From a virus, in IMG/VR virus record IMGVR_UViG_3300021197_001149, positions 1 through 21,473 of that record: 21,473 nucleotides of DNA, one strand, 5' to 3'. A program made the translations under genes and the position numbers. Shown one piece after another: positions 1-6,934 of the stretch; positions within the stretch are counted from its first letter, which is position 1; every line of letters begins with the position of its first letter. The notes under the pieces are model-generated. The model did no database searches. It was given only the letters and a program-made list of their open reading frames with translations, and was not told the DNA's origin.

Positions 1-114
1 ACCGTACCATGATTTACGGACTACGAAGTTCTTACGTTCGATTGGTGGGAAGATTTCATTTAGTTCTTCTTTAGATAGTTTTGAAATTGCTTCGTTTAAT
101 TTAGAATTTGACAT
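1..114 (-). CDS. Small hypothetical protein, leftward, cut by window edge
   Basis: An open frame on the minus strand starts with ATG at 114 and runs without a stop to base 1, giving 38 residues that begin MSNSKLNEAISKLSKEEL. The rest lies outside the window. The visible part is a short charged amphipathic stretch (KLSKEELNEIF) followed by a basic segment (IERKNFVVRKSW). I do not recognise a family. The start is preceded by a very A/T-rich leader (bases 115-149), and upstream of that lies a copy of the CGATAATATAAATG element (150-163), which supports real leftward transcription. The reading frame uses many C-ending codons (ATC, TTC, AAC). It belongs to the same leftward group as the three small genes to its right. 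Confidence 0.7.
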   Translation of the reverse strand, partial: MSNSKLNEAISKLSKEELNEIFPPIERKNFVVRKSWYG

Positions 115-149
115 AATTTAATTTATTTATTATTATTATTATTTATTTA

Positions 150-163
150 CATTTATATTATCG
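150..163 (-). promoter_or_regulatory. Leftward promoter-like element, copy 1
   Basis: The minus strand reads CGATAATATAAATG, identical to the copy at 513-526 and one base different from the copy at 713-726. It sits 35 bases upstream of the ATG at 114. It contains GATAAT (close to a -10 box) and TATAAATG (close to the T4-type late promoter core TATAAATA). No conserved -35 box is visible. Function is inferred from position and repetition only. Confidence 0.5.
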
Positions 164-195
164 AATACCATTCGTATTCAGTTTGTAAGTTTGAC

Positions 196-315
196 TTAGT
201 AGAAGTCGTAATAGATATCCATGACTTCAGACTTCTGTTCGTCTGTTAGATCTGGCCAGTTGAGCCCGAAGCGTCTCCAGCTGATCTTTAATAGTGTATA
301 TGATTTAGTTGACAT
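196..315 (-). CDS. Small hypothetical protein, 39 aa, leftward
   Basis: A complete minus-strand frame runs from ATG at 315 to TAA at 196 and encodes 39 residues: MSTKSYTLLKISWRRFGL at the start, PDLTDEQKSEVMDIYYDFY at the end. The composition (basic aromatic first half, acidic helical second half) looks like a real small phage protein, but I recognise no family. It is the second of four same-strand mini-genes. Unlike its neighbours it has no copy of the 14-base promoter-like element directly upstream; the gap to the next gene (316-346) is only 31 bases, so it is probably co-transcribed with the gene starting at 499. Leader bases upstream are A/T-rich with no Shine-Dalgarno. Confidence 0.65.
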   Translation of the reverse strand: MSTKSYTLLKISWRRFGLNWPDLTDEQKSEVMDIYYDFY

Positions 316-346
316 AGTTAATTGATTTAAGGTTTAAAGGAATCGT

Positions 347-499
347 TTACCCGTAGATTCCGAATGACGTTGGCGCTCCGTGCTGGATCATATGCACAAT
401 GACTGAGAGTAGTGCTGTGATGATGAATCCTGTTGTTCCGATGACCAGTGCTTGACCAGCATACTTTAGTATGACTTTGTGGTTGAATTTGTATTTCAT
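347..499 (-). CDS. Small single-pass membrane protein, 50 aa, leftward
   Basis: A complete minus-strand frame from ATG at 499 to TAA at 347 gives 50 residues. A basic N-terminus (MKYKFNHKVILKY) precedes a hydrophobic stretch of about 21 residues (about 17-37: ALVIGTTGFIITALLSVIV), then a short tail ending GAPTSFGIYG. This is a plausible inner-membrane protein with the positive N-terminus inside. No family is recognised; small membrane proteins near phage early genes are often host-takeover or superinfection factors, but nothing here shows that. A perfect copy of the CGATAATATAAATG element lies 13 bases upstream of the start. Confidence 0.7.
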   Translation of the reverse strand: MKYKFNHKVILKYAGQALVIGTTGFIITALLSVIVHMIQHGAPTSFGIYG

Positions 500-512
500 A
501 TTATTCGTTTTA

Positions 513-526
513 CATTTATATTATCG
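513..526 (-). promoter_or_regulatory. Leftward promoter-like element, copy 2
   Basis: The minus strand reads CGATAATATAAATG, a perfect match to the copy at 150-163, and lies 13 bases before the ATG at 499. If TATAAATG is the -10 core, the transcript would have only a few leader bases, which fits a host that does not rely on Shine-Dalgarno pairing. It lies in the gap between two leftward genes. Confidence 0.55.
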
Positions 527-539
527 TTTACGTTCCGTG

Positions 540-695
540 TTAGCTTTGCATAGTTGAGATGCCGATGATCTTGCTGTAGCTCTCGTTGCTGTAACATTTG
601 CTGAGGTAGTTGTCCAGATGCTGTTGGTTCTGGAACTGTTTAACAGTGCTGTTGTAATTCCCTAACCAGTTCTTTGTATCTATTCTAACTAACAT
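540..695 (-). CDS. Small hypothetical protein, 51 aa, leftward
   Basis: A complete minus-strand frame from ATG at 695 to TAA at 540 encodes 51 residues, starting MLVRIDTKNWLGNYNSTV and ending SKIIGISTMQS. It is rich in N, Q, S and Y with one cysteine and has no membrane segment. No family is recognised. It is the first gene of the leftward group, next to the divergent region, and a variant of the 14-base promoter-like element sits 17 bases upstream of its start. Coding status rests on the consistent frame, the upstream element and the placement in a run of similar mini-genes. Confidence 0.65.
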   Translation of the reverse strand: MLVRIDTKNWLGNYNSTVKQFQNQQHLDNYLSKCYSNESYSKIIGISTMQS

Positions 696-712
696 ATCTT
701 TTATTTTGTATT

Positions 713-726
713 CATATATATTATCG
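713..726 (-). promoter_or_regulatory. Leftward promoter-like element, copy 3 (variant)
   Basis: The minus strand reads CGATAATATATATG, one base different from the two perfect copies. It lies 17 bases before the ATG at 695. Upstream minus-strand bases are GGTTAA, similar to the GTAAA before copy 2, so the conserved unit may be slightly longer than 14 bases. Confidence 0.5.
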
Positions 727-766
727 TTAACCGATCGTATTAAGTATGTAAATGCTATACATAGAT

Positions 767-870
767 CCTGTATCCTGGACCTGGGAAAGCGTAAATCCTG
801 GCCGGGATCCTGTGTGCTGTGGCGGCTGGGACCTGGCAGCTGATCCTGGAAACGTGATCCTGAAACCTGG
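767..870 (+). repeat. GC-rich cluster of CCTG/CCTGG words, all in one orientation
   Basis: Nine CCTG words begin at 767, 774, 780, 797, 809, 832, 845, 859 and 866. Four are in GATCCTG (764-770, 806-812, 842-848, 856-862) and three in ACCTGG (779-784, 831-836, 865-870). No CCAGG is present on the plus strand here, so these are direct, not inverted, repeats, with irregular spacing of 6 to 23 bases. The stretch is far more GC-rich than its surroundings. One small hairpin is possible at 795-808 (ATCCT, loop GGCC, GGGAT). It could be an array of protein-binding sites (origin, packaging or control site); which is unknown. Confidence 0.65.
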
Positions 871-974
871 AAACGATACGGGGGCTGGCAAAAAGAAACG
901 GATTTTACTTTTTATGGTTTTTAATTATTTTATAGTAGCAACCCAAAACCTCCACATATCTAACTATTTTTAAA

Positions 975-1005
975 TATAATGTGACATTAGGTAGTTATAT
1001 ATAAT
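975..1005 (+). promoter_or_regulatory. Candidate rightward promoter region for the late genes
   Basis: Two perfect TATAAT words occur at 975-980 and 1000-1005, 80 and 55 bases before the first rightward gene. Neither has a convincing -35 box at the usual spacing (GTGACA at 981-986 is only 13 bases from the second box). Both lie in AT-rich DNA where such words arise easily, so this is a weak call based mainly on position in the divergent gap. Confidence 0.3.
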
Positions 1006-1060
1006 AGTAGCAGGCAACTGTCGCATTAAGAACTCAGAAAACAGCGTAATCATACACAGT

Positions 1061-1303
1061 ATGACACAAAAACTATCTCCGGCAGCAAGAAGAGCTAAGC
1101 GTGCACGGGACAAAGCATACGCTATGACACCTGATCGGAGAAGAAAAAAAGCACATTCCCAGCGAGAGCGCAGGAAAAAGCCCTGCCCTGACGGTTATGA
1201 CTACGATCACAAGAGACAAAAGTGCGTACCAATGGCATCCAATAGAGGAAACGAGGGCGAAGGGACTAAAAAAGAAAGTGGTAAAAACTACAACACAAAA
1301 TAA
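1061..1303 (+). CDS. Small basic hypothetical protein with a two-cysteine motif
   Basis: Encodes 80 residues. The first 40 are strongly basic (SPAARRAKRARDKAYAM, then DRRRKKAHSQRERRKK), followed by CPDGYDYDHKRQKC, in which two cysteines flank an aromatic loop, then a polar tail. The basic part could bind DNA or RNA, or sit inside the capsid; the cysteine loop could bind a metal or form a disulfide. I recall similar small proteins in uncultured marine phages but know no function. It is the first rightward gene after the divergent region and ends 2 bases before the tail-fibre start at 1306. Its DNA is somewhat richer in G and C than the genes that follow. Confidence 0.8.
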   Translation: MTQKLSPAARRAKRARDKAYAMTPDRRRKKAHSQRERRKKPCPDGYDYDHKRQKCVPMASNRGNEGEGTKKESGKNYNTK

Positions 1304-1305
1304 AC

Positions 1306-4300
1306 ATGGCTAGAATACATAGATATACAAAAGGTAATGTAACATTATCAGATACATTAGTAGGAACTGATGTAGAAAATCAAAAGGCTACGGTAAATAT
1401 ACCGATTGCGGCTATTGTTGACCTAGCTATTGATTACTTTTCAGTAAATGGTAACGGTGATGGCATAAATCAGAGTCTTCTGGACATCACAACAAGCGTA
1501 GATGGGGCTATAACTTCCATTGCCACATATCAAAACATAGTAAACACTCTTACAAACGAATTTACGTCTATTGTAAATCGTACAGAAACGCTAGAATCTG
1601 TATTTAATACAAATATTGATGGTACGGTGACGCTTTCTACGTCAAATATTACTAATTTCTACGAAACTATCGCCTCCGAGGGGTTTGCTTCTGCTACATC
1701 GCTAAATTCTTTATCTTCACAAGTCCAGCAAATAGTAGATGGTGTCCTTGTAATAGACACATACGCTACAATTGATCAGTTGGCTAACGTAACTTCTACT
1801 TTAACTGGTTCGATTGCTACATTAGAAGACACTTTGACTACTGCTTACAGGGCTTATACCGATGGTATACTTACAACAGACGCTTTTGCGTCAGCAGTAT
1901 CAGGACTTGTAACACAATCGACTGATACTTTTGCATCTTCTACTGAATACACCAACCTTAAGGCTAATTTTGGTACATTTGACGCAAATGGCAACCTATT
2001 AACACTAGCAAGCTCTTTTGCAAACAATGTTGTGAGTGCATATACAGATGACACATTAGCTACAGCCTCAGATATAAGTACTTTAGACGCATCTTTAAGG
2101 ACATTCGTAAGCGACTCAATATCTACTGCATCGAATGCGGGTATCACTTCTAGCTATTTAACTACAGTTTTAGCAAATTATGCAACAGCACAAGCATTAC
2201 TAGACTTGCAATCATCGATAGGAACGTATGATGCTAATGGAAACATCACTGCACTATCAAGTGCTTTTGCTAATCAAGTTACTTCAGCGATTTCAACAAA
2301 CACATTTGCGCAAGTAACAGATTTAAATGAACTAAAGGCTGAGATTGGTACTTTCGACGCAAACGGAAACCTAACAGGTTTATCGACCGCGTTTTCAACT
2401 GAATTAACAGATATTATTGCTAATGAAAACTTGGCGAGCGCCCAAAGCGTTACAGATCTTACAGCTACAGTAACGCAAAACAACACTACACTATCCGCTG
2501 GCGTTTCTACTAATCAATCAGCTATTGCCTCAGTCGATGGGAAGTTAACTGCTTCTTACGGTTTAAATGTAACAGCGGGGAATGCAATTTCGGGTATGAC
2601 TCTGTTAGCGGATGGAACTACTAATCTTTCTGAAATTAAATTTGTAGCCGACAAGTTTTCAATAGAACAGCCTAATGGTAATTCTATTGCTCCTTTCGTT
2701 CTTAATAATGACGGCTCTATATCATTAAACGGAGCGGTAACATTTTCAAATTCGTCGTCTGGTACAGGGATTAGCCAAACCGATTTACAAAACTATTTAA
2801 CAAATAACAATTACACTACAACAAGTGACTTACCCACTGAGTTCACTACTACAGACCTGCAGAATTATTTAGATGCACAGGGTTATGAATCAGGTGGTAT
2901 TGATGCCACGCAGTTGGCGACTTATCTTTCTAATGGCGGTTATATAACTGATCAAACCACAATCAACGGAGGAAAAATTGAAACAGGTATTATAGCTAGT
3001 CAAAATTTTGCGATGCCCACGAATTCTTTAACATCGGGTTTTTCAATTGACGGTATGGGTATAAACCTAGACAATAATTCTATACACGCTAAACAGTTCT
3101 ACATTAATGCAGACGGATCCGCGAACTTTGGTGGTTCCCATACAGCTGGGTCAGTAGGCGCTTGGGTTGTAGATTCAGGAGGTGCTTTAAAATCTTCAGC
3201 GTCATCTCCTGCAATAGTATTATCGCCAGGGTCCTATACAGAAGGGACAAGTGAAAAAATAATTATATCAGGTGTTAACTTACCTGCAATATCCCCTTCC
3301 GCAGGCGTAAACTTAGATTTTCAATTTGCGGGTGGTTGGCAAGGTGTTACGCCTATAATCCCCCAAGCTTATCATGTCTGGGCAGGTTTTCCTCATAATG
3401 TGAACAACGCAACGCCGGCTCATAATTTAACTGGGGCTAATGGGTATTTCACCACACCGAATGATATAGCTACAACGCAAACTGCTTTTGGGGAAAGCAA
3501 CAACCTAGGATACGCACACCCCGGAGGCCCCTTAGAGTTTTCGATGCCCTACGCAGCAGGAACCTCTCAGGCTGTTTTTGATGCTACGGTTCAAGAACAA
3601 TTTTTATATGAATGGGGCGCTAGGTTTAGCACTGACCCTGACATGGTTACAAGGAGTAGAACAAATCCCCAGCTTAATAAAACAGGTATAGTAGAATTTG
3701 ATTATAGCGTAAAACTTGTAACCAAGATGTACAGAGGCAGTAGTAGTGATACAGCAACTACTGTCCAATCGGCAACTTTAGAACAAACTTTTACTAAAAC
3801 TTTAGACAGCGGGTCAAAGCTTGTTGATTTAAATAATTTTATTCAAATCACCAACCAAACTACAGATAATACATTTCCGTACCCTAACATGAACACAGCC
3901 GATGCTAACGGTGATTTCGTTATTGATACAATATATTATTCTGCGGAAATTGGTTTTGGCAATTGGAATGAAGGCACTCAAACGCAGGGTGCGGCTCCTA
4001 TAAATATTAGTGCTGGTAACATATTTTTAATATCTAGTCTTGAATACAAAATAGAAGATATTCGCTTTTGGAAATCAACTAGTTTTAGCGGTTCAGGCTA
4101 TGCTAGCGGCGGGAGATTCTTTGCTTCTTTATTTGAATTTGGAGCGTGGTATAGTAGCAGCGGCGGTAACATTGCTTCAGCAACAGCATTAACGCAAGTT
4201 TTATTTAAAGGGGGTGATCCCAAAATAAATATAGGTTTAAATGGTACGCAGGTAAGAGGAAAAGAAGGTTATGTGGCTTTAGGTGATATTACATCAACCG

Positions 4301-4692
4301 ACTCTATTGCGCAATTTTGGGGAGATACCGAGGTTATAGGTACAATTACAACAAACTCTACCGCTACATTTTCAGATGAAAGATTAAAGCAAAATATTAC
4401 ACCTATAAAAAATTCAATAGAAACAATTAAATTATTAAACCCGGTTACATATAAATGGAATAGAGGCAAAATTAATGTATCTGGAACTAAGCACGGTTTT
4501 ATAGCGCAAGAAGTAAGAGATATTATGCCGTCGACTGTTTTAGGCGGCGGTCAGATCGCTGATGTAGAAGACGCTTTATCTGTGGAGTATAATAATTTTA
4601 TAGCAATCAATACATCTGCAATTAAAAAGCTTATAGAAAAAATAGAGGCTTTAGAAGCTGAAATAGAAACATTAAAAGAAAACAATGGCTAG
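1306..4692 (+). CDS. Tail fibre/spike protein with C-terminal S74 intramolecular chaperone
   Basis: This 1,128-residue protein is a likely trimeric receptor-binding fibre. Residues 1-22 (MARIHRYTKG...LVGTD) match the N-terminus of the next gene and probably anchor the fibre to the tail. Residues about 125-390 hold repeated short units, and three GTFDANGN or GTYDANGN words begin at 223, 306 and 348 (spacings 83 and 42, so roughly a 42-residue period). The region about 690-1000 is rich in aromatic and G/S/T residues and is the likely receptor-binding part. The C-terminus is an endosialidase-type chaperone domain (Peptidase S74): SDERLKQNI begins at S1023, with K1028 five residues later, the spacing of the Ser-Lys pair known for self-cleavage in this family. 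The last 25 residues form a coiled coil. It overlaps the next gene by 8 bases (ATGGCTAG). Confidence 0.9.
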   Translation: MARIHRYTKGNVTLSDTLVGTDVENQKATVNIPIAAIVDLAIDYFSVNGNGDGINQSLLDITTSVDGAITSIATYQNIVNTLTNEFTSIVNRTETLESVFNTNIDGTVTLSTSNITNFYETIASEGFASATSLNSLSSQVQQIVDGVLVIDTYATIDQLANVTSTLTGSIATLEDTLTTAYRAYTDGILTTDAFASAVSGLVTQSTDTFASSTEYTNLKANFGTFDANGNLLTLASSFANNVVSAYTDDTLATASDISTLDASLRTFVSDSISTASNAGITSSYLTTVLANYATAQALLDLQSSIGTYDANGNITALSSAFANQVTSAISTNTFAQVTDLNELKAEIGTFDANGNLTGLSTAFSTELTDIIANENLASAQSVTDLTATVTQNNTTLSAGVSTNQSAIASVDGKLTASYGLNVTAGNAISGMTLLADGTTNLSEIKFVADKFSIEQPNGNSIAPFVLNNDGSISLNGAVTFSNSSSGTGISQTDLQNYLTNNNYTTTSDLPTEFTTTDLQNYLDAQGYESGGIDATQLATYLSNGGYITDQTTINGGKIETGIIASQNFAMPTNSLTSGFSIDGMGINLDNNSIHAKQFYINADGSANFGGSHTAGSVGAWVVDSGGALKSSASSPAIVLSPGSYTEGTSEKIIISGVNLPAISPSAGVNLDFQFAGGWQGVTPIIPQAYHVWAGFPHNVNNATPAHNLTGANGYFTTPNDIATTQTAFGESNNLGYAHPGGPLEFSMPYAAGTSQAVFDATVQEQFLYEWGARFSTDPDMVTRSRTNPQLNKTGIVEFDYSVKLVTKMYRGSSSDTATTVQSATLEQTFTKTLDSGSKLVDLNNFIQITNQTTDNTFPYPNMNTADANGDFVIDTIYYSAEIGFGNWNEGTQTQGAAPINISAGNIFLISSLEYKIEDIRFWKSTSFSGSGYASGGRFFASLFEFGAWYSSSGGNIASATALTQVLFKGGDPKINIGLNGTQVRGKEGYVALGDITSTDSIAQFWGDTEVIGTITTNSTATFSDERLKQNITPIKNSIETIKLLNPVTYKWNRGKINVSGTKHGFIAQEVRDIMPSTVLGGGQIADVEDALSVEYNNFIAINTSAIKKLIEKIEALEAEIETLKENNG
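1681..2472 (+). repeat. Degenerate protein-level repeats in the fibre shaft
   Basis: Within the first fibre (residues about 126-389), units of the form aromatic/N-x-A-[ST]-x-x-x-L-x-x-L-x-x-x-[IVL] recur: FASATSLNSLSSQV, YATIDQLANVTSTL, FASSTEYTNLKANF, LATASDISTLDASL, YATAQALLDLQSSI, FAQVTDLNELKAEI and LASAQSVTDLTATV. They look like short coiled-coil segments between beta-rich linkers and suggest growth of the shaft by duplication. The DNA has drifted, so the repeat is clear only in protein. Confidence 0.7.
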
Positions 4693-6934
4693 AATACCTA
4701 CTTATCAAAAAGATACATACATATCCGATCTTGACCGTTTAATCGGTACAGATGGAGATACTAACGAGCTAGTAACTAAAAACTTTTTTCTAGGCAATAT
4801 TGCAGAATATGTAATTGATAAGTTTATAGACCCCGATGCGGTTAGTTTTACGATACCAGTATTAAGAGACACTCAAGACACGCTGGGTTCGAATGCAACA
4901 CGCATAACAGGCTCTATTATGTCACAGGATATAAACCCTGACGGAACAAAAATTACTATAGCTGGTGATTTAGAAGTCAATGGCACTGCTCAAATAGACT
5001 CGCTTACTAGCGGGTTTTTACCTTATGTTAACCCTGCTGGCATATTGGCGGATTCGATTATATACCAAGATGCGGAAGGTCATGTAGGTATAGGTGTAGT
5101 TGGAACTCCTCCGAACCCTGAGCATAAATTTGAAGTATACGATTTACGTGACGAAAATAATGCGCTTGATTACTCTATGATAGTATCATCCGACGTAAAT
5201 ACTACCGGTTTAGGCGCTGGCGGTATAAAAAATCAATTATCTTTAGATGGTGGCGTTACTTATCCTTATGCAATTTCTCTTGTAACAGGTACAACTTCTT
5301 CAGAAGTAATGGCCACAGGAAAGTTAGCTTTTTATTCTAATTCAGATTTAAATACAGCAAGTGGAACAGGTTTTTCTGGGTTTGTTACTCATGATGGGAC
5401 TGACACACATTGGCAATTAGGTGGAAATGGGACTGATGCAGCCCCAATCACAACGCTTAAAGTTGTGGGCACTGGTGAATTTACAGATCAATTAACAATC
5501 CCTGAAACCCCTATAGCTGGTACAGACGCAGCATCTAAGGCTTATGTTGATTTACAAAACACTGGTCAGGTATCAGGTACTGGCACAACTAACACCTTGC
5601 CAATATGGTCAGATGGACCTAATAGCGTTTTAGGTGATTCTATTATTTCTGAATTGGCAAACGAAATAACCATAGCCGGGGACTTAAAAGTAGGCCAAAA
5701 CAACACCACCCCTGGTCTTTATAGCGCAGCTATTGGCGAAGACAACAGGGTTTTAGGAAATACCGCTGCTGCTATTGGATTTAATAATGCAGTGGAAGGA
5801 AACAGGTGTGGAGCATTGGGCGCAAACAACATAGTGACTGGCGGTCAAGTGTGGGCAACGGGTGATGGTAACGACGTGGGTATTGACTTATTAAATGTAG
5901 GTGGTAACATTGTTGTCGCTGGTTTTAACAATACGGTTAAGTCAGGAAACTCATGTGCAGTAGGTTCTAATAATATTTTAACTAATACTTTAGAGGAAGA
6001 GACAGTAAAAACAAATTTTGCTTTAGGTTCTTCAAATACTATAAACGACACAACTAATGGCCTAGCTATTGGTTTTAATAATACTATAAACAATGATGAT
6101 GGCTGCATTTTAGGTAGAAGCAATACTACAAGCGCTAATGACACTTATGCTGTAGGTAGAAGTAACACGCTTAGCAGCGACGACGATTACGCGTTTGGGT
6201 TTAACAACACTCTTAGCGGTAGCGCTGATATTGCTATGGCTCTTGGGCATAATAACGTGTTATCAGGAAGTCAATCTTATGCTTTCGGTAGAAACCTACA
6301 AGATGGCGGTGAAGATAACACCGTTATAATTGGTCGCTACAACACAACGCCTACAGCTACTGGTAGAATTGTATTTGGAACAGGCTTCTCTGATACTGGT
6401 AGAAAAAATGCAATAGAAATACAAGCTGGCAATGGCACGCAATCTGGTTTATTGTTTCCAGCGCTTAGACTTTCTACCTCCTACAACAATGACGCAGAAG
6501 CGGAAGCCGCGGGTGTAGAAGAAGGAGAACTGTATAGATCTAACAACAGTGTTAAAATAAATTTAAATCAAAACGCACAAGACGCTAGAAATAATGAAGG
6601 GTTTGCATATCTAACGCCGCAATTACTAACAGCTAGTGCCGGCACGTCTAAAAATATTATTCCAAACTATAATTTAGTTTTATTGAGCTGGACGGGTGGT
6701 AATGGTGTTTTCACATTAAAACTTCCATTAGCGTCTACCAACACACATAGACTAATAAGAATTACAACAGACGGTAGCTTAGACGCTGGCGCTGCTGATA
6801 AAATAAACATTACGGCTGTTGGCAGCGAAACTATAGACGGCAATCCTTCTTTTCAAATATCAAAGCGATATGAAGGACTAGCTGTATTTTCCACAGGAAC
6901 TGAATGGATAATCGTACAAGCTAAAGCGCATTAA
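4685..6934 (+). CDS. Second tail fibre with YadA-like head repeats
   Basis: Encodes 749 residues. The N-terminus (MARIPTYQKDTYISDLDRLIGTD, with the key run MARI..Y and L[IV]GTD) is the same module as in the upstream fibre, followed by an IAEYVIDKF helix, so both fibres probably dock at the same tail site. The middle (about 50-340) is a G/T/D-rich beta region with a short S-K-A-Y-V-D unit near residue 285-290, common in phage fibres. Residues about 347-553 are a chain of AxGxxNxxxG-type repeats (AAIGEDN, AAIGFNN, CAVGSNN, LAIGFNN, YAVGRSN, YAFGFNN, MALGHNN), the pattern of YadA/Hia trimeric adhesin heads, which form a left-handed beta roll. The C-terminus is beta-rich with no S74 domain. Start codon lies inside the end of the previous gene, implying translational coupling. 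Confidence 0.88.
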   Translation: MARIPTYQKDTYISDLDRLIGTDGDTNELVTKNFFLGNIAEYVIDKFIDPDAVSFTIPVLRDTQDTLGSNATRITGSIMSQDINPDGTKITIAGDLEVNGTAQIDSLTSGFLPYVNPAGILADSIIYQDAEGHVGIGVVGTPPNPEHKFEVYDLRDENNALDYSMIVSSDVNTTGLGAGGIKNQLSLDGGVTYPYAISLVTGTTSSEVMATGKLAFYSNSDLNTASGTGFSGFVTHDGTDTHWQLGGNGTDAAPITTLKVVGTGEFTDQLTIPETPIAGTDAASKAYVDLQNTGQVSGTGTTNTLPIWSDGPNSVLGDSIISELANEITIAGDLKVGQNNTTPGLYSAAIGEDNRVLGNTAAAIGFNNAVEGNRCGALGANNIVTGGQVWATGDGNDVGIDLLNVGGNIVVAGFNNTVKSGNSCAVGSNNILTNTLEEETVKTNFALGSSNTINDTTNGLAIGFNNTINNDDGCILGRSNTTSANDTYAVGRSNTLSSDDDYAFGFNNTLSGSADIAMALGHNNVLSGSQSYAFGRNLQDGGEDNTVIIGRYNTTPTATGRIVFGTGFSDTGRKNAIEIQAGNGTQSGLLFPALRLSTSYNNDAEAEAAGVEEGELYRSNNSVKINLNQNAQDARNNEGFAYLTPQLLTASAGTSKNIIPNYNLVLLSWTGGNGVFTLKLPLASTNTHRLIRITTDGSLDAGAADKINITAVGSETIDGNPSFQISKRYEGLAVFSTGTEWIIVQAKAH
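5723..6343 (+). repeat. YadA-head-like repeat block in second fibre
   Basis: Residues about 347-553 of the second fibre contain about ten or more units with the core [AVI]-x-G-x-x-N-x-[VIL], usually 14-16 residues apart, with longer insertions near 395-410 (VWATGDGN) and 435-445 (LEEETVKTN). The pattern is the one known from trimeric autotransporter head domains. Copies differ in DNA sequence, so this is an old or purified repeat rather than a recent expansion. Confidence 0.75.

Follow-up and report, generated by a model that had tools for sequence, protein, structure and literature searches.

Iterons are direct repeats of about 17–22 bp with a regular, helically phased spacing. The locus described here shares with the iteron and initiator-box origins of phages and plasmids a single-copy non-coding site, same-direction words, AT-rich DNA and flanking promoters, but its words are 4–7 bases long, irregularly spaced and variable among lineages, and an initiator was not recognised. 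In divergent control regions of tailed phages, such as those of lambda type and the A2/A3 region of phi29 (PMC3100819), a single gap separates early from late transcription, and the present gap appears to share this arrangement. A further likeness is an operator-like dyad common to the regulator operon and the late operon. The long, lineage-specific word array and the GGGGGCTGG core of the present locus are not known from such regions.

The DNA analysed, hereafter the window, spans the complete record of an uncultured virus (21,473 bases) and has an overall GC content of 0.374. Its terminase was nearest to that of the uncultured Manatee Spring podovirus MW202828.1 (63.5% identical), followed by those of Flavobacterium phage elemoE and the Cellulophaga phages phi46:3 and Calle_1 (37–45%). 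The podovirus likewise has a divergent gap, of 1.1 kb, and the array in it (GC 0.69) exceeds in GC every other 130-nt stretch of the 20.8-kb piece analysed; its words, however, are CGACG and CACACG, and the conserved core c and dyad e described below were not found in it by pattern. The gaps of elemoE, phi46:3 and Calle_1 are also divergent and largely non-coding (1.1–1.7 kb) but lack an outstanding GC-rich array, and c and e were not found there by pattern, one loose c-like match being present in the phi46:3 gap. Named phages gave no nucleotide match to positions 1–4700 of the window and no match to its first structural protein, and a tRNA/tmRNA search returned none. The hosts are most likely Bacteroidota; the contig of one relative was binned with a Sphingobacteriales MAG, that of another with a Desulfobacteraceae MAG. 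In the openly accessible literature searched, no account of this element and no transcription or replication map of these phages was found.

Layout of the divergent gap

The rightward genes of the window encode a tail fibre (1306–4692), GroEL, the large terminase, the portal and a virion structural protein, and the leftward side holds short ORFs only, up to the record end. The features in and around the gap are as follows.

146–189, minus strand: candidate early promoter box of the leftward ORF that starts at 114 (motif family of 40 boxes in five relatives)
509–550, minus strand: candidate early promoter box for the leftward ORF 347–499 (motif match by eye)
711–752, minus strand: candidate early promoter box of the leftward ORF 540–695 and the closest one to the array (conserved in relatives)
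753–760, plus strand: TGCTATAC box, flanking the array on its left (similarly placed in many relatives)
764–870, plus strand: irregularly spaced word array with nine CCTG, four of them within GATCCTG and three within ACCTGG (composition and relatives)
783–810, plus strand: internal block b1, GGGAAAGC...CCTGGCCGGGATCC (alignment; seen by eye in several other lineages)
871–908, plus strand: core c, AAACGATACGGGGGCTGGCAAAAAGAAACGGATTTTAC, near-invariant and single-copy (48 distinct loci aligned; one match per genome in five of five near-full records)
935–964, plus strand: block d, GTAGCAACCC...CCACATATCTAAC, reading TATATTTG in some lineages (comparison of loci)
981–1024, plus strand: dyad e, GTGACATTAG-N24-CAACTGTCGC with TATATATAATA inside, candidate late promoter/operator (pattern in 47 of 48 loci)
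1061–1303, plus strand: 80-aa ORF that opens the structural operon (phrog_6437, unknown function)

Matches to the 80-aa first rightward ORF were obtained at 56 loci in viral contigs, and a profile of it yielded 210 loci, the best 80 of which were taken; dozens of related uncultured phage contigs share the divergent gap. In the 400 bases upstream in these relatives the parts followed in a fixed order, which runs from the candidate early promoter box, through a frequently present TGCTATAC box, to array, core c, d, e and first structural gene. The place, the flanking promoter-like boxes, core c and dyad e were kept across lineages, with the array words varying. The array occupies the middle of a putative control region, present in single copy, that separates the diverging early (leftward) and structural (rightward) blocks. 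A preliminary description of the locus had correctly placed it between leftward and rightward transcription units, here the small ORFs and the structural block respectively; it recognised the array itself but missed the conserved blocks on either side, and these matter more.

With 210 loci carrying the neighbouring gene, relatives are numerous in metagenomes, and their comparison yields a map on which are placed a putative early promoter family, a candidate late dyad common to the structural operon and an operon with HTH and sigma-like genes, and a single candidate origin. If the array words are recognition sites, their turnover would provide a natural series on the replacement of a replication or regulatory code.

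The word array among relatives

Positions 767–870 contain nine CCTG words on the plus strand and no CAGG, in agreement with the earlier count of nine same-direction words with none inverted, and their irregular spacing was likewise borne out (intervals of 7, 6, 17, 12, 23, 13, 14 and 7). The three ACCTGG stood, but the four reported GATCCTG were recovered only by including the copy that starts at 764, the interval itself holding three. The GC content of these 104 bases (0.596) was the maximum of the window; the statement that it was unlike anything else there was slightly strong, given a value of 0.558 for the 104 nt at 3469. Elsewhere, a scan of the whole window found at most three CCTG per 104 nt on either strand. 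Mononucleotide shuffling of 759–900 (20,000 shuffles) gave a mean of 0.47 CCTG and a maximum of 5, against the nine observed.

In the close group, consisting of the window and five other loci (L002, L003, L005, L051 and L054), the 131 bases up to the core aligned without gaps. Variable columns amounted to 5 of 36 within CCTG words vs. 31 of 95 outside them, the CCTG columns being defined on the window's own sequence, which somewhat favours their conservation. Absence from close relatives, a chimeric assembly and a host-derived insertion had been named as findings that would undo the preliminary interpretation. The gap occurs at the same place in close relatives and is ungapped over 131 nt in six aligned sequences, and the array is therefore neither a chimera nor a host insertion; the finding is real and conserved, and the array is part of a predicted phage control region. 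The comparison of CCTG words with their flanks that had been suggested showed less variable CCTG columns inside the close group and different words between lineages.

Other lineages showed ACAGG/CCAG words in the same interval (L018, L019, L020 and L031), or GACC/ACACC (L023), CTCTCC (L026), CCAGG (L127 and L129) and CAGGA (L179), and AT-rich sequence replaced the array in L033, L043 and L044. Because other lineages carry other words there, the conserved feature at this place is a word array or spacer and not CCTG itself. Of 42 testable arrays, 23 repeated words beyond dinucleotide shuffles (p ≤ 0.005) and the others did not clearly do so, some AT-rich stretches in the array's place showing no significant word repetition; the test judged 42 of 48 loci, the six without a left anchor being left out. 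On a protein tree of the next gene (45 proteins, 81 columns, many open forks) the word classes were clustered, with label cut-offs of our own choice, and the same tree indicated that gene and gap do not have one common history. The gap of the window is very like those of L051 and L054, but the next gene is far less alike, and gap and gene therefore appear to recombine separately.

Core c, dyad e and the candidate early promoter boxes

Core c consists of a near-invariant GGGGGCTGG followed by an A-rich tract, and marks the divergent point of all five near-full relatives (G001, G002, G004, G005 and G006) with one copy each. Like that for dyad e, its search pattern was written by hand from the upstream sequences of relatives; the alignment of 48 cores was made after five duplicate core sequences were dropped and that of L017 was added by hand. 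By pattern, core c was found within 900 bases in 49 of 57 loci, the window included. The remainder comprised a core c variant (L017), four loci that end before core c, and three in which upstream DNA is present but core c is not recognisable (L030, L046 and L052; 3 of the 53 loci with enough upstream DNA). In a wider set of 45 further loci, some of them cut off and some perhaps bearing variants that the pattern misses, core c was found in 23 and dyad e in 35. A DNA pattern scan for core c returned 23 stretches. Contigs of the existing set accounted for 13; the other ten included three true new loci (L070, L071 and L081), which joined the core alignment, and L063, L064, L066, L068, L076, L078 and L079 were judged chance matches in unrelated sequence.

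The TATATTTG form of block d resembles the consensus of the Bacteroidota −7 box. An AT-rich tract lies between d and e in the window and most other loci, and fits a promoter as well as an opening region. Between d and e, L018, L019, L020, L027 and L031 have a ATTCCTTCGGAAT hairpin next to a run of A, with the appearance of an intrinsic terminator for leftward transcription.

Dyad e recurs away from the gap. Three copies were detected by pattern in each of G001, G002 and G006, and none in G004 and G005. Inspection by eye placed e at or just before the start codon of a gene for an HTH protein in six of six genomes (L188–L193), in a diverged form in G005. In G001 this gene adjoins a sigma-like gene (phrog_351), and homologues of both are encoded in all six genomes; the HTH assignment is a Pfam match below cut-off, as is Sigma70_r2 for the sigma-like gene. 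Since the HTH-protein gene start also carries e in six of six genomes, e is most simply interpreted as a putative promoter/operator common to the regulator operon and the structural operon, which would place the array and core behind both divergent promoters. The overlap or abutment of e with the HTH-gene start codon suggests autoregulation, and perhaps near-leaderless expression.

On the leftward side, the GATAATATA box, read leftward, occurred in 40 copies in the left arms of the five near-full relatives, all 40 of them 9–90 bases upstream of a leftward ORF start (0.46 for random positions); the right arms held two sense and two antisense copies. Its consensus by eye is TTTACAAACT-n-AATACGAA-n-CGATAATATAAATG. 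This long box family, almost confined to the left arm, probably constitutes, by position, an early promoter family. As a test for a divergent early/late region, the motif positions, taken alone, fit leftward early-class promoters and a different, late-class element directed rightward.

Candidate roles of the array and the TGCTATAC box

Our tentative reading is that the array and core c form a cis-acting DNA site, most likely a replication origin and next an activator array for the early–late switch. Such a site would be bound by phage or host proteins behind both divergent promoters. The array words would serve as initiator-binding sites, the G-run/A-rich core c would be the fixed anchor of the origin, and opening would take place in the AT-rich tract that lies between d and e; in the alternative, second in likelihood, the array would act as the activator array of the early–late switch. 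The position, the presence in a single copy, the conserved anchors and the AT-rich DNA alongside are no more than suggestive of an origin. The classical iteron form of the origin put forward earlier does not fit, because the spacing is irregular and the words, of 4–7 bases, change between lineages. An origin or a regulator array at the DNA level remains, structured RNA not being supported. GC skew, which had been recommended as a check, changed sign at the gap and again at the convergent gene junction, not at the half-genome point; because of this second turn it follows transcription and lends no support to an origin. A DnaA C-terminal DNA-binding domain was found in none of six genomes and no replication initiator was recognised, a primase/helicase and the HTH protein being present.

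A regulator-binding array without a replication role, in which a phage or host protein would activate late promoter e and/or repress the early promoters, is possible but on the whole unlikely. It would account for the location directly behind both divergent promoter elements, for the relative conservation of CCTG columns, and for HTH and sigma-like proteins in phages whose dyad e is common to the HTH gene and the late operon. However, the visible shared operator is e rather than the array, and the words cluster nowhere else in the window and were not seen at the start of the HTH operon. Somewhat more doubtful is an origin or control element that keeps its position and anchors but has its repeated recognition word rewritten by lineage (CCTG, CAGG, GACC/ACACC, CGACG). 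Such rewriting, if true, would be expected from co-evolution of a word and its reader marking lineage identity, and lineage-specific words could, for example, bar co-infecting relatives from each other's origin or late switch. That the array is a low-complexity spacer, in which only length and flanking blocks matter and words arise by local duplication and drift, is improbable: the wide variation of word content and GC among lineages, AT-rich versions included, and significant repetition (p ≤ 0.005) in no more than 23 of 42 testable arrays would suit it, but the close-group array is ungapped over 131 nt with CCTG columns better conserved than their neighbours. Least probable is a packaging (pac) site or genome terminus. 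Contig ends did fall within 700 bp to the left of the first structural gene in 13 of 57 loci vs. 1.6 expected, within a pile-up spanning 0–1.5 kb on that side. The enrichment is nevertheless confined to the left, with the ends scattered, and the terminase gene is 13 kb away; headful pac sites often lie near terS. A fixed genome end (cos or terminus), one form of the packaging site suggested earlier, is disfavoured by near-full contigs, which cross the array and have their ends in unrelated places, though they leave room for a headful pac site. Breaks in assembly caused by strain variation account for the pile-up just as well, and we read it as such breaks at a variable, hypervariable or hard-to-assemble stretch rather than as a genome end.

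A structured leader RNA, transcribed from the rightward TGCTATAC box through to the structural genes, is very unlikely. In its favour, TGCTATAC, which resembles an extended −10, lies on the plus strand at the left edge of the array, and the close-group alignment from array to first ORF folded somewhat better than its column shuffles (z −2.2; −2.9 for the part around c). The values for array plus core and for the reverse strand were +0.15 and −0.44, and because the signal was lost (z +0.59) on adding two further members across a shorter stretch, it was not relied on. Against such a leader, an Rfam search of positions 1–2000 on both strands gave no match, the single-sequence fold of 759–900 had z −0.72 (plus) and +0.80 (minus), and neither the 48-sequence core alignment nor the 14-sequence wider alignment yielded a consensus structure. 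Covariation was borderline for a core c hairpin, which we do not claim (37 of 500 shuffles as high), and absent from dyad e, whose 40 distinct dyads, out of 47 found, had 343 of 400 cells paired, vs. a mean of 341.5 in partner shuffles (774 of 2000 as high); an RNA hairpin at e was accordingly rejected. With neither clear covariation nor a consensus structure in support of RNA, the region was read as DNA-level elements.

Among 8-mers seen 10 or more times on the left-arm (early/replication) sense strand of the five near-full relatives, TGCTATAC was the most over-represented by ratio, with 38 copies vs. 1.33 expected in 97 kb; the right arms had 5 sense copies vs. 2.98 expected, the convergent points that delimit the arms being placed by hand. 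The left-arm copies were mostly intragenic, in all three reading frames, about every 1–2.5 kb, and the copies near the gap are on the opposite strand to them. A promoter role was rejected for TGCTATAC, copies elsewhere in the genomes not being near gene starts, which also counts against the leader RNA. No description of this motif in phages was found in the openly accessible literature searched. A non-coding segment, GGAGTCTACTCTTCCG, recurs in G006, L028 and G005, where it lies some 1.0 and 2.4 kb to the left of the core and follows rightward TGCTATAC boxes; by eye it could form a hairpin, and it may be a small RNA.
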